From Atopobium sp. BS2 (lineage in GTDB: Bacteria > Actinomycetota > Coriobacteriia > Coriobacteriales > Atopobiaceae): a stretch of DNA of 64,000 nt. The notes beneath the pieces were generated by a model. It was not told the origin of the DNA and ran no database searches. It saw only the letters and a program-made list of their open reading frames with translations. Numbering within the stretch: position 1 is the stretch's first letter; each line of letters opens with the position of its first letter. The position numbers and the translations under genes were made by a program. Shown one piece after another: positions 2,418 to 14,543 of this stretch. The DNA lies in contig NZ_JDFG01000040.1 in the NCBI RefSeq assembly GCF_000565075.1, positions 1-64,000 of the forward strand, read 5' to 3'.

Positions 2418-2595
2418 TTCATAGTAACGACACAGAATAGTTGTTATTTTCATTTAGTTGTTAACCTATACGAACAAATATCAATAATTTAAGTAACGCC
2501 TCAGAGCGGCATCTTCACAAAATTTATATGTATACCATGGCTAACCATAGGAAACGTTTTCGCAGGTAAGAAATTACTTGTGTGCAATTGTTTTA

Positions 2596-2615
2596 TTAGG
2601 ATAACTAATTAGTAA
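2596..2615. promoter_or_regulatory. Possible metal-repressor operator
   Basis: TTAGGATAACTAATTAGTAA contains the perfect palindrome ACTAATTAGT (2604-2613), and its left half resembles the TTAGG-TAA half-site of DtxR/IdeR-type repressors. It lies about 90 bases upstream of the metal ATPase operon. The match is partial, so this is a weak proposal. Confidence 0.3.
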
Positions 2616-2703
2616 TGATTTTCACTTGTTTTTTTCGTAAAATAATTTTATCTTCAATAGGTCATTAACCGATTAATTTGCAAATAGCAGATGGGGGATT
2701 TTT

Positions 2704-3006
2704 ATGAAACTGAACAATTGGTGTCTTGCAGCCGGTGGCGCTGCACTTGCTGGCGTTGTTGCTGGTCTTGCTTCTAACGGCACTCTTCACAAGGCAGCTG
2801 TCAAGGCAACTGCATGTGGTCTTCGCGTAACTGACCGCGTTTCCGCAGAGACTCAGAACGTCGTTGACGAGGCTAACGACGTTGTTGCAGAGGCTCGTCG
2901 TGAGTCCAAGATTGACGCTGCAGTTCGCGCTCGCCTTGCTGAGCTCGAGGAGGGTATCCGCGCTGAGGTTACCAAGCAGGTCGACGCAGAGGGCGCACAG
3001 GCATAA
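2704..3006 (+). CDS. Small PacL-like / DUF6110-like membrane protein, partner of the P-type ATPase
   Basis: A 100-residue protein with one N-terminal Ala/Gly-rich membrane helix (about residues 6-26), followed by a charged Glu/Ala-rich helix (VVDEANDVVAEARRESK, then AELEEGIRAEV). Small proteins of this layout (DUF1490/PacL in mycobacteria, DUF6110 in other phyla) are encoded next to P1B-type ATPases; PacL1 stabilises CtpC and helps resist zinc. Here it directly precedes the ATPase (stop TAA at 3004-3006, next start 3010), which argues for the same role. Unlike PacL1 it has no Asp/His metal-binding tail. Assignment to DUF6110 is from memory of the family pattern and needs a profile search. Confidence 0.7.
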   Translation: MKLNNWCLAAGGAALAGVVAGLASNGTLHKAAVKATACGLRVTDRVSAETQNVVDEANDVVAEARRESKIDAAVRARLAELEEGIRAEVTKQVDAEGAQA

Positions 3007-3009
3007 TTC

Positions 3010-5178
3010 ATGCGCTTCACAATTACTAATGAAATCTCAGGTCGCATTCGTGCAAAATGCGACCTGGGTCATATTGATGAGGCTGAAGCCCGTGGTATTT
3101 CCTATGAGCTGATGCGTGTTGACGGTGTTCGTCACGCAGAAGTTCACATGGCAAACGGTTCTCTCTTGCTAAGGTTTGATCCTCTCAAGAGAGATCAGGT
3201 ACTTGCGGCTGTTGGCGCTTTTGATGTCTTGAACTTGCCGCGAGAAGAAGAGGCAGGCCTTGAAGACTTCTGCAGCTCAATCGAGATGGCTCTTGAGAAC
3301 AATCGTTTCCAGATGGAGGTTGTGACCACATTCGCACGCCGCTGGATTATGCGTTCTTTGCCACTGCCTGCAGTTGCTAACTACGCGTATGTCATTCTCC
3401 GCGCCATTCCATTTGTCGTGGAAGGCGTTAAGCGCCTATTTAAGAAAGAGCTGACTGTTGAGGTTTTGGACGCAACTGCTATCACCACTTCAATTCTAAG
3501 AAATGAGTGGGCAGATGCATCTACGGTCATGTTCTTGCTTGAGCTGTCTGCTGCTATGGAGAACCACGTGGCAAGCCGAGCACGTCTTGCACTTCGTGAT
3601 GGCCTAATCACTCGTTCTGAGAACGTCTGGGCTCGTATTGACGGCAAGGACGTAATGATTGCCCTTTCTGAGGTTGAGAAGGGTATGATTCTGCACCAGC
3701 GTGCTGGTGGCGTTCTTCCTGTTGATGGCAAAGTTGTTGAAGGCATCGGCCAGATGAACGAGGCTGCCATGACAGGTGAGTCTCGCCTTGTTACCAAAGA
3801 GCCTGGTTCAACCGTTTACGCAGGCACCGCTCTTGAAGACGGCGACCTTATGGTAAGCGTTACTGCTCCTCCAGGAATGTCTCGTATCGACAACATTGTT
3901 GATATGGTTGAGCAGTCTGCTGAGCTTAAGGCTGGCGCACAGTCTAAGGCAGAGCGCCTTTCTGATGCACTGGTTCCTTACAGCTTCCTTGCCTTCTTTG
4001 GTATTTGGGGTATCACCCGAAACATCACTAAGGCTATGACCGTTCTTATGGTTGACTATTCCTGCGCCATTAAGCTTTCCACTCCTGTTGCAGTGGGTAG
4101 CGCTATGGATGAGGCAGCTAAGTTTGGCATGACGGTTAAGGGCGGCAAATACCTCGAGAAGATCGCTGCAGCAGATCTTATCGTCTTTGATAAGACAGGC
4201 ACGCTGACAAAGGCAGTTCCACACGTTGAATGTATTGTCAGCTTCTGCGATCGTACCGAGGACCAGCTCTTGCGCCTTGCTGCATGTATTGAGGAGCACT
4301 TCCCACACAGCATGGCTCGTGCAATTGTGAACGAAGCAAAGGTACGTGGCCTCAAGCACAAAGACGAGTTCCACGCAGAGGTTAAGTATGTTGTTGCTCA
4401 CGGTATTCGTACCAAGGTTAACGACAAAGAGGTCTGCATTGGTTCTGCTCACTTCATTTTTGATGACGAGAAGACCCCAATGCCTGAGGGAATTCAGGAC
4501 GACCTTGCACAGATTGCTCCAACCTCGTCCATTATCTTTATGTCCGAGGATTCAAAACTTATTGCAGCAATTTGTATTACCGATCCTGTAAGGGAAGATG
4601 CAGCAGCAACTATTACGCAGCTCCGTGCTCTTGGTGTTAAGCGTATGGTTATGCTGACCGGCGACTCAGAAAACGTTGCAGCAAGTGTTGCTAAGAAGCT
4701 TGGTCTTGATGACTACGTCGCACAGATTCTCCCAGAGGATAAGTGTGAGTATGTTAAGAAGTTCCAGCAGGAGGGTTACACCGTTGCAATGGTAGGCGAT
4801 GGTATCAACGATTCACCTGCACTAGCCGTATCTGATGTTTCACTGGCGCTTTCTGATGCAACTGATATTGCTCGTGCTGTTGCGGATATTTCAATTAAGA
4901 ATGATTCGCTTGAATCTTTGGTAATCATGCGTCTTTTAGGCCAGCAGGTAATGAAGAGGATTCACGCCGACTATCGCACGATTGTTGCGCTGAACAGCTC
5001 CTTCATTGCTGCAGGTGTTGCAGGTCTTATTACCGTAAGTGCTGCTGCATATATGCACAATCTTCTGACACTTATGGTAACGCTTGCAAACACAAGGTCG
5101 CTGCTTACCACTGCAGCTCATAACCCTAATGTTCCTTCTGAGGTAAAGATGCTCTTGACTGAAGGACAGATTGCTTAG
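3010..5178 (+). CDS. P1B-type heavy-metal exporting ATPase
   Basis: A 722-residue heavy-metal P-type ATPase. Residues 1-75 form an HMA-like domain without the CxxC pair. TGES (255-258) is the actuator motif, DKTGTL gives the phosphorylated D394, and GDGIND (596-601) is the hinge. The transmembrane metal site reads D349-Y-S351-C352-A-I-K-L rather than CPC, so this is not a copper CopA; the pattern recalls CtpC-like and other Mn/Fe/Zn exporters (inference). It is translationally adjacent to the small PacL-like protein. A strong terminator follows at 5221-5258, so the two genes probably form a closed operon. Confidence 0.9.
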   Translation: MRFTITNEISGRIRAKCDLGHIDEAEARGISYELMRVDGVRHAEVHMANGSLLLRFDPLKRDQVLAAVGAFDVLNLPREEEAGLEDFCSSIEMALENNRFQMEVVTTFARRWIMRSLPLPAVANYAYVILRAIPFVVEGVKRLFKKELTVEVLDATAITTSILRNEWADASTVMFLLELSAAMENHVASRARLALRDGLITRSENVWARIDGKDVMIALSEVEKGMILHQRAGGVLPVDGKVVEGIGQMNEAAMTGESRLVTKEPGSTVYAGTALEDGDLMVSVTAPPGMSRIDNIVDMVEQSAELKAGAQSKAERLSDALVPYSFLAFFGIWGITRNITKAMTVLMVDYSCAIKLSTPVAVGSAMDEAAKFGMTVKGGKYLEKIAAADLIVFDKTGTLTKAVPHVECIVSFCDRTEDQLLRLAACIEEHFPHSMARAIVNEAKVRGLKHKDEFHAEVKYVVAHGIRTKVNDKEVCIGSAHFIFDDEKTPMPEGIQDDLAQIAPTSSIIFMSEDSKLIAAICITDPVREDAAATITQLRALGVKRMVMLTGDSENVAASVAKKLGLDDYVAQILPEDKCEYVKKFQQEGYTVAMVGDGINDSPALAVSDVSLALSDATDIARAVADISIKNDSLESLVIMRLLGQQVMKRIHADYRTIVALNSSFIAAGVAGLITVSAAAYMHNLLTLMVTLANTRSLLTTAAHNPNVPSEVKMLLTEGQIA

Positions 5179-5302: not shown

Positions 5303-5330
5303 TTGCATTTAGTTAGCTATGGCTTACACT
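5303..5330 (+). promoter_or_regulatory. Sigma-A type promoter for the DUF3793 leader
   Basis: TTGCAT (5303-5308), a 16-base spacer, and TACACT (5325-5330). Transcription would start near 5337, leaving a leader of about 165 bases before the DUF3793 gene. Confidence 0.5.
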
Positions 5331-5336
5331 TTAAAT

Positions 5337-5501
5337 AGTTAGAAGAGGTTAACTTGTTAAGGTTTTTATATAACAGGAGCTAGTTCTAACAAAATTGCTT
5401 TATCAGCCCGGAACCTTTCCCCTCTCCAAGGGTCCGGAATCCAGGCGCCGTCGGCTCCCTTTTAGTCGACGGCGCATTTTTAAGAAGGGAGCAAGTGCGG
5501 T
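5337..5501 (+). ncRNA. Attenuator/riboswitch-like leader of the DUF3793 gene
   Basis: The leader holds, in order: a TTAAC-tt-GTTAA palindrome (5349-5360); an AGGAGC (5375-5380); a hairpin CCGGAACCTT/AAGGGTCCGG (5408-5417 with 5428-5437, one mismatch); and a terminator-like hairpin GCGCCGTCG/CGACGGCGC (5445-5453 with 5467-5475) followed by ATTTTT. The terminator loop carries GCTCCCTT (5454-5461), an exact complement of AAGGGAGC (5485-5492), which is the ribosome binding site of the gene. The upstream GGAGC could compete for the same GCTCC. This is the architecture of a ligand-controlled expression platform; the ligand and RNA class are not identified. Confidence 0.55.
5445..5481 (+). terminator. 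Terminator-like hairpin in the DUF3793 leader
   Basis: A perfect 9-base GC-rich stem (GCGCCGTCG / CGACGGCGC), 13-base loop, then ATTTTT. It ends only about 20 bases before the start codon, so it would attenuate rather than close an operon. Confidence 0.7.
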
Positions 5502-6248
5502 ATGGATTGTCTTACTTCTTTTGAGAATTCATCGCTTTTTGACGTTACTTCTCCCTATGTATATTCCGCTGATAAAAAGCTTGCTTCTACCGGAAGTGAA
5601 AGAGCTTATACGCCTGAACTTTGTCATGATTTTGCGACAACGTTTGTTCGCTGTGCCGCTGGTGTTATTGCTCACGTCAAGCCAGCTGCACTCTTTTCAT
5701 TTGCGTCCCACAAGTCTTGCAGTTCTTGTACAAGCCTTATTTGCACCGATCCAACACTGAGGGCATTTCTCTGCAACGCTACGCACGAGCTCTCGTTGTT
5801 TGGGGTAACGCTCCTTGCCACCTCTGCTATTTCGGGTGGAAAGGTATCGTTCGTTGCGTATAGACCTGAGCTTGTTGAGGATATTCTCGCCAAACCAGAG
5901 CACTGTGAGTTCTTGGCTACGTTTGGCCATTCCACTGAGTCGGTGCAAGCGTTGATGAAGAGCATGCGCTCAAAAATCTTTGCCTTCCATGCAAGAAAAG
6001 CCGCGTTTCCGCACGAGATTGGACTGGTACTGGGCTATCCACTTGCTGATGTTCAGGGCTTTATGAATGGACAGTCTGAGCTTTTTACTGGTGCTTGGAA
6101 AGTCTATGACAACACGGAAGAAACTCGCCTTCGTCTCGAGAGACTTAAAGATGCAGAAGACCAGTGTAAGCATCGTTTTTATCAAGGGGAATCTTTAGCT
6201 CAGATTCTCTCATCGTATGGCAATACCAAGAAATGTCAGGTTGCATAA
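5502..6248 (+). CDS. DUF3793 family protein
   Basis: A 248-residue protein whose C-terminal part HEIGLVLGYPLADVQGFM, followed by GAWKVYDN and a Cys near the end, is the DUF3793 signature. The function is unknown. Such genes are common in anaerobic Firmicutes and Coriobacteria, often beside flavodoxin, as here. Cys residues cluster in KSCSSCTSLIC (about residues 70-80), which could bind a metal (inference). The start ATG 5502 has AAGGGAGC 9 bases upstream, and that site is complementary to the loop of the preceding terminator hairpin. The flavodoxin gene follows after 84 bases. Confidence 0.8.
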   Translation: MDCLTSFENSSLFDVTSPYVYSADKKLASTGSERAYTPELCHDFATTFVRCAAGVIAHVKPAALFSFASHKSCSSCTSLICTDPTLRAFLCNATHELSLFGVTLLATSAISGGKVSFVAYRPELVEDILAKPEHCEFLATFGHSTESVQALMKSMRSKIFAFHARKAAFPHEIGLVLGYPLADVQGFMNGQSELFTGAWKVYDNTEETRLRLERLKDAEDQCKHRFYQGESLAQILSSYGNTKKCQVA

Positions 6249-6332: not shown

Positions 6333-6737
6333 ATGAGTAAAGTAGCAGTTGTGTATTGGTCCATGACGGGCAATACTGAGGCAATGGCAAAAGAGCTTGC
6401 AAGTGCTGCAGACACCGAGGCTATTGAGTCTTCTGAGTTCTCTGCAGATATGTGCGATCAGTACGATGCATTTGCTTTTGGTTGCCCTGCTATGGGTGAC
6501 GAGGAGCTTGATCCTGATTTTGAGGAGCTCTTCAATGACTGCGCAGGCAAGCTTGGTCAGAAGCCAACCGCTCTCTTTGGTTCTTACGACTGGGGAACCG
6601 GCGACTGGATGGAGACTTGGAAGCAGAATGCTGAAGCAGAGGGCGTCAACGTTGTTGAGACTTTTATCTGCAACCTTGAGCCAGATGACGATGCTCTCGA
6701 GGCTCTTCGCGGCCTTGGTGCAAAGCTTTCTGCTTAA
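6333..6737 (+). CDS. Flavodoxin
   Basis: A 134-residue flavodoxin. SMTGNTEAMA (about residues 10-19) is the FMN phosphate-binding loop, FGCPAMGDEEL and FGSYDWGTGDWM are the two loops that sandwich the isoalloxazine ring. It carries one or two electrons at low potential and in anaerobes often substitutes for ferredoxin when iron is short (family knowledge). It follows the DUF3793 gene with its own strong ribosome binding site (AGGAGG), and a small hairpin TCCAGG/CCTGGA (6298-6314) lies just upstream of it. It may be read through from the attenuated DUF3793 leader. Confidence 0.92.
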   Translation: MSKVAVVYWSMTGNTEAMAKELASAADTEAIESSEFSADMCDQYDAFAFGCPAMGDEELDPDFEELFNDCAGKLGQKPTALFGSYDWGTGDWMETWKQNAEAEGVNVVETFICNLEPDDDALEALRGLGAKLSA

Positions 6738-12651: not shown

Positions 12652-13587
12652 GTGAGATCGTTTCTAATCAAACGAATCCTTCAAGCAGTGAGCGTTGTAG
12701 TTTGTATTTCTGCTTTAACGTTTTTTGTCTTGAACATTGTCCCAGGTGACCCAGTACGAGTCATGATGGGCGATATGGCTGATGAGGCTACTGTTCAACA
12801 GGTCCGTCACACCATGGGTCTTGATAAGCCAATTCCAGAGCAGTACGCAAACTGGTTTGTGAAAATGCTTAGTGGAGATTTTGGAACTTCTTACACTCAG
12901 AAGCGACCTGTCATTGCACTTCTGACTAAGGCTTTGGGAGTTACGCTACGCTTAGCAGTGTTTGCGTATCTTTTTGCCATAGTATTTGGTCTTTTGATGG
13001 GTATTCTCGCCGCAGTAAACCATGGAAAATGGCTTGATAGAACACTTATGTCAGCTGCAATCTTTGGTATTTCTGCTCCATCGTTTTGGGTGGCACTTGT
13101 ACTGCAGATTATTTTTGCTATGACGCTTAAGTGGTTCCCGTTGTCTGGTGTTAAAACGCCATCCGCGTACGTTCTTCCTGTTATTGCGCTGGGCTCTCGT
13201 TACGCAGCAAGTATTGCCCGCGTTACCAGGACCAGCATGCTGGACGTATTAAATCAGGACTACATTAGAACCGCTGAAGCTAAGGGCTTAAAGCGCTCCG
13301 CTATTGTTTTGAAGCACGCGCTCAGAAATGCTCTGATTCCAATCATTACCATTGCTGGATCTCAGCTGGGAGACATCCTTACTGGTTCCATCATCATTGA
13401 GCAGATCTTTAATATGAACGGTATGGGTAAGTTGCTTATTGATGCAATTAATGCTCGTGACCTGCCGTTGATTCAGGGTAGTGTCATGTACGTGGCAATT
13501 ATCTGCGTTGTGATTTATTTACTTGTTGATATTTTGTACGCAGTAGTTGATCCACGAATTCGTCTTGGAGAGGAGGCATCAGAGTAA
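12652..13587 (+). CDS. Peptide ABC transporter permease, DppB type
   Basis: A 311-residue inner-membrane permease of the DppB/OppB family with six predicted helices. The EAA-type loop that contacts the ATPase is visible as DYIRTAEAKGLKRSAIVLKH, and FNMNGMGKLLIDAI and VDILYAVVDPRIRLG are conserved C-terminal blocks. The start is GTG 12652, with GGGGAGAGGAG upstream; the N-terminal MRSFLIKRILQAV is typical. Its stop TAA overlaps the ATG of the next permease by one base, showing translational coupling. Confidence 0.94.
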   Translation: MRSFLIKRILQAVSVVVCISALTFFVLNIVPGDPVRVMMGDMADEATVQQVRHTMGLDKPIPEQYANWFVKMLSGDFGTSYTQKRPVIALLTKALGVTLRLAVFAYLFAIVFGLLMGILAAVNHGKWLDRTLMSAAIFGISAPSFWVALVLQIIFAMTLKWFPLSGVKTPSAYVLPVIALGSRYAASIARVTRTSMLDVLNQDYIRTAEAKGLKRSAIVLKHALRNALIPIITIAGSQLGDILTGSIIIEQIFNMNGMGKLLIDAINARDLPLIQGSVMYVAIICVVIYLLVDILYAVVDPRIRLGEEASE

Positions 13588-14543
13588 TGGCTTTGTTTAC
13601 GAGCGATAAAAATAGCGAGAAGGTCCAAAAGACTGAAGCTGTACTTGAAGATGCCGCCAAGGCTCAAGAAGCAGAACAGGCTGCCACGGGAAAAGTCCGT
13701 GCGCAGAGCTATTGGCAGGTTAGCTGGAACATCTTTAAGAAAAATAAACTGGGCATGATTTGCTTAGGCATTGTTTTGGCCCTTGCGATTATTGCAATTC
13801 TTGCTCCTGTGATTGCTCCTTACAGCTACAAGGATCAAAACCTTGCAATTATGAATCAGAATCCAACGTTTGCACATCTGCTTGGCACCGATGAGTACGG
13901 CAGAGATATCCTTTCTCGTATCATCTATGGCTGCCAGATTTCTCTGTCTGTTGGTATTATTTCGCAGGCTATTGCTCTCTTTATTGGCTTTGTTGCGGGA
14001 GTTGCAGCCGGATATTATGGCCGTTGGGTTGATGCAGTTGTTTCCTTTATCATTCAGGTTTTCTCCAGCTTCCCATTCTTGCTTTTTGCAATTTTGATTA
14101 TGTTTGTTATGGGCCCAGGTCTTATTAACCTCTATATTGCACTGGGTCTTCTGATGTGGACAACTACGGCAAGGCTGATTCGAGGCGACGTCATGCGCCT
14201 GAAGAATTCTGAATACATTCAGTCTTGTATTTTGTCTGGTGGTAACAGCTTCCGCATCATCATGAAGCATTTGCTTCCTAACTGCATTTCTACGCTGATC
14301 GTTGTTTCTACCCTGGGTATTCCAAGTGCAATTCTTTCTGAGGCAACGCTTTCGTTCTTGGGATTGGGCGTTCAGCCACCTGATGCAAGCTGGGGTCAAA
14401 TGATTGCAGCTTCTCAGCCATTCCTTGCATCACAGCCTATCTACAGTATTGCTCCAGGTATTGTCATCATCATTACGGTTATGTCTTTCAACTTGCTTGG
14501 CGACGCCCTTCGCGACGCCCTTGATCCAAAGATGCGTTCTTAG
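13587..14543 (+). CDS. Peptide ABC transporter permease, DppC type
   Basis: A 318-residue DppC/OppC-family permease. After a cytosolic N-terminal stretch of about 45 residues come six helices; GTDEYGRDILSRIIYG and the coupling loop SEYIQSCILSGGNSFRIIMKH mark the family, and the protein ends in DALDPKMRS as is usual. It pairs with the DppB-type permease to form the channel. It overlaps the upstream gene by one base, and the ATPase gene follows with AGAAAGGAGG in the gap. Confidence 0.94.
   Translation: MALFTSDKNSEKVQKTEAVLEDAAKAQEAEQAATGKVRAQSYWQVSWNIFKKNKLGMICLGIVLALAIIAILAPVIAPYSYKDQNLAIMNQNPTFAHLLGTDEYGRDILSRIIYGCQISLSVGIISQAIALFIGFVAGVAAGYYGRWVDAVVSFIIQVFSSFPFLLFAILIMFVMGPGLINLYIALGLLMWTTTARLIRGDVMRLKNSEYIQSCILSGGNSFRIIMKHLLPNCISTLIVVSTLGIPSAILSEATLSFLGLGVQPPDASWGQMIAASQPFLASQPIYSIAPGIVIIITVMSFNLLGDALRDALDPKMRS

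Follow-up and report, generated by a model that had tools for sequence, protein, structure and literature searches.

The region upstream of the DUF3793 gene (5303-5501) in Atopobium sp. BS2, analysed within a window of 64,000 nucleotides, is probably the gene of a trans-acting, metal-(iron)-regulated small RNA (sRNA) of a new family, with C-rich loops that would pair with Shine-Dalgarno sequences. Computational comparison with relatives revealed a conserved fold, covariation, a constant loop, stand-alone copies and a shared operator. Transcription would start near 5337 from an operator-covered promoter and would mostly end at 5476-5481, yielding an RNA of about 145 nt. The conserved core (5395-5481) would form its 3' part. 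The features are as follows:

2529-2546, no strand assigned: operator-like palindrome upstream of DUF1490 and a P-type ATPase (PWM score 13.2; GTTAGCCATGGTATAC in a sister species, L127)
5303-5330, plus strand: sigma-70-type promoter assigned from sequence (TTGCAT at 5303-5308, 16-nt spacer, TACACT at 5325-5330)
5311-5328, no strand assigned: operator 1, AGTTAGCTATGGCTTACA, overlapping the -10 element (PWM score 21.9)
5337-5354, no strand assigned: operator 2, AGTTAGAAGAGGTTAACT, at the presumed +1 (PWM score 18.3)
5338-5390, plus strand: 5' hairpin (GTTAGAA/TTCTAAC) in the fold of the window, outside the conserved core
5395-5481, plus strand: conserved sRNA core of about 90 nt (covariance model R1, 47 bits, E 5.1e-7; R2, 57.6 bits, E 8.3e-11)
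5408-5437, plus strand: hairpin H1 with a 9-nt unpaired C-rich loop, CCCCUCUCC, at 5419-5427 (covariation)
5445-5481, plus strand: intrinsic terminator hairpin with the C-rich loop CUCCCUUUU and a T-run (fold, terminator scan, covariation)
5485-5492, plus strand: Shine-Dalgarno sequence of DUF3793, AAGGGAGC, complementary to 5454-5461
5502-6248, plus strand: DUF3793 protein (PF12672, E 1.6e-34; Pfam match), ATG at 5502
6333-6737, plus strand: flavodoxin (PF00258; Pfam), in the same operon as DUF3793 and co-localised with it in relatives

The RNA is composed of a 5' single strand, H1 and the terminator with its C-rich loop. The perfect 9-base GC stem with a T-run, described in an earlier note on this DNA, was found at 5445-5453/5467-5475, followed by ATTTTT; a terminator scan counts 12 pairs and ranks the hairpin best in the region. 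All 19 copies folded adopt the same two-hairpin shape. Among 45 distinct copies, 93.9% of the pair cells are standard, compared with 74.7% after shuffling and 35-54% after sliding, and compensatory two-sided changes occur at 20 of 22 pairs. Within the terminator stem, such changes affect 11 of 12 pairs. In all 45 distinct copies, CUCUCC occupies an unpaired hairpin loop, carried by 32 different stems, a constancy that is partly selected because some copies were retrieved through the loop motif (20-odd loci; the covariance model was seeded with motif-anchored copies). The same loop is present in loci found by protein synteny alone (L001-L006, L023). The RNA combines covarying stems with an unpaired C-rich loop that is conserved. 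Judged from the aligned copies, the conserved part is this loop and not an alternative fold, and the H1 loop is the likely seed. The terminator loop is C-rich in nearly all copies; in the feoB-linked ones it is not.

The promoter TTGCAT-16-TACACT lies exactly where the earlier note had placed it. It scores below the threshold of a simple promoter scan; the arrangement TTGCA...TACTCT/TACACT recurs at DUF3793-adjacent and stand-alone RNA copies, and a start at about 5337 is predicted from it. The leader folds at -60 kcal/mol, compared with -48.2 kcal/mol in shuffles (z -3.0), and is thus more stable than shuffled sequence. The elements listed in the earlier note are all at the stated positions; the conserved hairpin with the CCCCUCUCC loop and both palindromes had been missed. 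In aligned leaders, the 5' segment of the unit differs from genus to genus. An AGGAGC, formerly regarded as a competitor for the pairing of the ribosome binding site (RBS), is present at 5375-5380; the closest sister species has CAGAGGCTC instead, which does not support such a role. A TTG-started frame of 121 codons (5395-5760) was rejected as a leader peptide because, from copy to copy, the arms of the hairpins are free to change in length as well as in sequence.

The first covariance model (R1), built from 12 of the 19 copies, has matches in 46 of 100 relatives. A second model (R2) detects it in 58 of the 78 listed genomes of Atopobiaceae, the family of the window, and yields two weak matches among the other 220 genomes of the class. 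About a quarter of the family genomes are without a detectable copy; among the carriers that have names are species of Olsenella, Thermophilibacter and Atopobium. The window's genome has two copies of the RNA. The second one (R2, E 2e-8) sits behind feoB and has its own operators. In two sister genomes (L126, L127), the feoB-linked copy ends as terminator and T-run opposite a convergent cation-efflux gene. Copies L073, L082 and L083 likewise face convergent genes, and since none of these copies has a downstream gene, nothing is there to attenuate. The RNA occurs in genomes that lack DUF3793 by both protein search and Pfam model (G007, G010, G021, G032, G034).

DUF3793 loci were collected by a protein search of 100 relatives, and their upstream DNA was compared in the correct orientation. 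Many share one module: a palindrome at the -10 element, often a second one past +1, a hairpin whose loop ends in CUCUCC, and a GC terminator whose loop is rich in C. The unit of promoter, leader and terminator is real, and its structure is conserved through compensatory changes, which supports this part of the earlier note. In L015-L017, L022, L025, L027 and L029, the palindrome stands directly before DUF3793, with no RNA at that position. L018 and L026 have an RNA that closes with its own terminator, and DUF3793 there has a separate operator-promoter about 200 nt downstream. Both arrangements indicate that a leader relation to DUF3793 is not essential. Promoter and intrinsic terminator belong to the RNA unit itself, which occurs whether or not a particular gene follows downstream. 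In L020 and L021, short membrane-type ORFs separate the RNA from DUF3793, and a short conserved ORF (MIQAVIFAVAVSVLGLAIHN...) lies between operator and sRNA in L082/L083.

The operator is an 18-bp palindrome (consensus AGTTAGCCATGGCTAACT), described by a PWM trained solely on DUF3793 promoters without the RNA. This PWM matches within 250 nt upstream of 13 of the 14 distinct-promoter copies tested (p<=0.005 each; exception L084), and also upstream of the window copy and three feoB-linked copies (p<=0.005 each). Paired sites are the usual arrangement. The palindrome is common to the DUF3793-flavodoxin operons and the feo-linked RNA copies, i.e. the operator is shared with genes of iron acquisition and iron sparing, and the metal link suspected in the earlier note gains support. 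RNA copies in the 3' UTR of eno have no operator there, and one or two upstream of eno. The operator precedes eno in L074, L075, L081, L085 and L087; the RNA adjoins eno in L067, L076 and L077. By these positions, enolase repeatedly falls within the same putative metal regulon, and the sRNA lies next to eno or in its 3' UTR. The half-site GTTAG/CTAAC is the core of DtxR/IdeR boxes; the spacing in this operator is wider, and the operator is not exactly like any textbook DtxR box. The window's genome encodes a single DtxR-type protein, about 142 aa long, and a single protein of the Fur family. The repressor is most likely the single DtxR/MntR-type protein, which would sense Fe2+; iron as the signal is suggested by the association with FeoB and flavodoxin.

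Proteins encoded nearby comprise an HMA-domain protein, a P-type ATPase with DUF1490, a cation-efflux protein, a MarR regulator and a glutathione peroxidase. The operator-like palindrome at 2529-2546 stands in front of DUF1490 (PacL-like, 2529-3006) and a P1-type ATPase (3010-5178) and is kept in L127. It is put forward for its position and conservation, because a PWM scan of the window at its threshold gave five matches, compared with 0-5 in shuffles. Pairs of DUF1490 (PacL-like) and P1-type ATPases are known from mycobacterial metal efflux platforms (PMC9374683). Genome-wide, a one-mismatch operator pattern was not above control (70 versus 61 matches). Strong operator-like palindromes elsewhere in the genome (G000:C12:80893, C19:12941, C34:30602, C33:13934, C3:20990) precede a neighbour of the signal-recognition locus, an amidohydrolase beside a CobW/G3E-like GTPase, and others; their regulon membership is putative.

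The proposed mechanism starts from a metal-dependent repressor, which would block sRNA transcription in iron-replete cells. Under iron shortage, the sRNA would be made together with Feo, flavodoxin and DUF3793. The C-rich loops of the sRNA, CCCCUCUCC and that of the terminator, would base-pair with G-rich Shine-Dalgarno sequences on mRNAs that encode iron-rich enzymes, e.g. that of a monomeric [FeFe] hydrogenase, and block translation. The probable outcome is repression of proteins with a high iron demand during iron scarcity. The flavodoxin is an iron-free replacement for ferredoxin, and DUF3793 and flavodoxin would be produced by partial read-through of the terminator. One operator would then yield an sRNA and, via read-through, an uncharacterised iron-starvation protein, which offers a functional setting for DUF3793 and would make an apparent riboswitch leader an example of an sRNA gene that is read through. 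With its covariation, family-wide occurrence and fixed C-rich seed, and with one operator tying it to feoB, flavodoxin and DUF3793, the RNA is a testable candidate for an iron-sparing regulator in Actinobacteria. Coriobacteriia, the class concerned, are anaerobes common in the gut and the mouth. A wider interpretation is held tentatively, at slightly less than an even chance: an Atopobiaceae-wide, often multi-copy class of metal-regulated sRNAs, sparing iron by Hfq-free base pairing, with copies within coding operons (operator-eno-sRNA-DUF3793-flavodoxin) and enolase in the iron regulon in several genera.

The earlier note had interpreted the leader as a switch acting on both transcription and translation of DUF3793. 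A purely cis-acting attenuator or riboswitch, sensing a metal or redox ligand through termination and masking of the RBS, would account for the terminator, the metal gene context and the complementarity of the terminator loop GCTCCCTT (5454-5461) to AAGGGAGC. This complementarity is exact, as claimed, and the 8-nt match has a p of 0.006 against shuffled loops. Among DUF3793-adjacent copies, however, the pairing of a loop with its own Shine-Dalgarno sequence averages 5.0 nt, compared with 4.8 nt across species; the pairing is not specific to loops and sites of one species. The match in the window is better explained by the tendency of the C-rich loops, as a group, to complement Shine-Dalgarno sequences. 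A conserved, mutually exclusive pairing (terminator loop against RBS, or an antiterminator) was not found among the copies. Nor are the copies confined to the 5' UTR of a regulated gene: they occur in genomes without DUF3793, upstream of its own promoter, and facing convergent genes without a same-strand gene downstream. AGGAGC and the 5' region are not conserved, and the search of Rfam riboswitch models, recommended earlier, gave nothing above the curated cut-off. The cis-only explanation is largely refuted and highly improbable.

Some regulation in cis may accompany the activity in trans. The DUF3793-adjacent terminator could double as a regulated attenuator, dependent on metal, protein or translation, that sets read-through into DUF3793 and flavodoxin. 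In at least 10 species, the terminator directly separates the operator-promoter from DUF3793 and no further promoter can be seen, and a single operator serves both the RNA and the DUF3793-flavodoxin genes. Such a dual function is nevertheless unlikely, as no conserved antiterminator or alternative fold was found, the pairing of loop and Shine-Dalgarno sequence is not specific in cis, and the RNA-less loci listed above keep the operator-DUF3793 unit. Alternatively, the C-rich loops might bind a cold-shock-type or other poly-C-binding protein, making the RNA a sponge and not a base-pairing sRNA. A loop that is short, single-stranded and almost constant while its stems vary would fit a protein site equally well, but the loop is the exact complement of the G-rich Shine-Dalgarno motif, and two C-rich loops per RNA are a known layout of base-pairing sRNAs in Gram-positive bacteria (PMC9410917, PMC8628891). 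The sponge is quite improbable.

The trans-acting iron-sparing sRNA resembles several known systems in kind. FsrA of B. subtilis and IsrR of staphylococci share the iron-linked operator, C-rich single-stranded stem-loop regions and the intrinsic terminator; their C-rich motifs bind Shine-Dalgarno sequences of iron-enzyme mRNAs (PMC9410917). Both are Fur-regulated and belong to Firmicutes, while the RNA of the window has a DtxR-like palindrome, two hairpins and multiple copies and belongs to Coriobacteriia. Unlike FsrA and IsrR, its copies often lie inside a DUF3793-flavodoxin operon or behind eno or feoB, and no relation to either in sequence or synteny was found. MrsI of Mycobacterium tuberculosis, an iron-sparing sRNA whose promoter carries an IdeR site, acts without Hfq (PMC8628891, PMC9410917). 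Compared by description, it is likewise actinobacterial and of an iron-sparing class with an IdeR-linked promoter, but has a six-nt seed not reported as C-rich and a different operator spacing. The 6C RNA (RF01066) of Actinobacteria, whose C-rich loops bind several mRNAs without chaperones according to the passage citing it in PMC8628891, shares the phylum and two hairpins with C-rich loops; in the window's RNA, however, the second hairpin is the terminator. Membership in 6C was rejected: RF01066 gave no match in the genome at E<=10, nor in 13 loci. 6C is not known to have a metal operator. The proteobacterial sRNAs sX13 (RF02232; 25.9 bits, cut-off 50, E 0.005) and CcsR1 (RF02791; 21.4 bits, cut-off 65.3) also have C-rich loops, in a different phylum, and were rejected; the resemblance arises from C-rich loops on GC stems. 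No Rfam riboswitch or sRNA family matched the window at gathering level. Since FsrA, IsrR, MrsI and 6C are not matched by sequence, the RNA is classed as a new family within an already known functional type. A literature search found no sRNA or RNA-based metal response for Coriobacteriia and no sRNA of Atopobiaceae; DUF3793 was mentioned in an unrelated context.

The H1 loop is complementary to Shine-Dalgarno sequences of the GGAGAGGG type. GGAGAGGG sites in the window's genome are few at start codons. A scan for GGGGAGAGGG N ATG was modestly above its reversed-pattern control, with many matches in non-iron genes, and the recurrent GGGGAGAGGGAGTAGATG was rejected as a target site, being antisense feoB coding sequence. 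The monomeric [FeFe] hydrogenase was identified by the Pfam domains Fe_hyd_lg_C and 4Fe-4S. GAGAGG occurs in the RBS region of 19 of 28 hydrogenase orthologs, which share ancestry, compared with 10 of 91 other genes, and in 17 of 26 after the two genomes whose matches prompted this post hoc choice were dropped. The RNA-less genomes G015, G018, G030 and G033 have the same hydrogenase Shine-Dalgarno sequence. The hydrogenase mRNA as target is only suggestive because of the post hoc choice, the relatedness of the orthologs and the sequence common to RNA-less genomes. Pairing of the genome's own hydrogenase leader with the H1 loop reaches -19.2 kcal/mol, which is among the strongest values for 43 window genes (median -10.1 kcal/mol). 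The window genes 12652 and 45692 pair with the loops as well as the hydrogenase does and are not iron-dependent in appearance. The genes with a G-rich RBS at 12652-14543 and 45692, which match the hydrogenase leader in this pairing, comprise two ABC-permease-like genes and one uncharacterised frame. The contig breaks at the window start (C40:1) and at G000:C7:1 adjoin the second sRNA copy, and synteny with G002 suggests that contigs C7 and C40 are neighbours in the genome.
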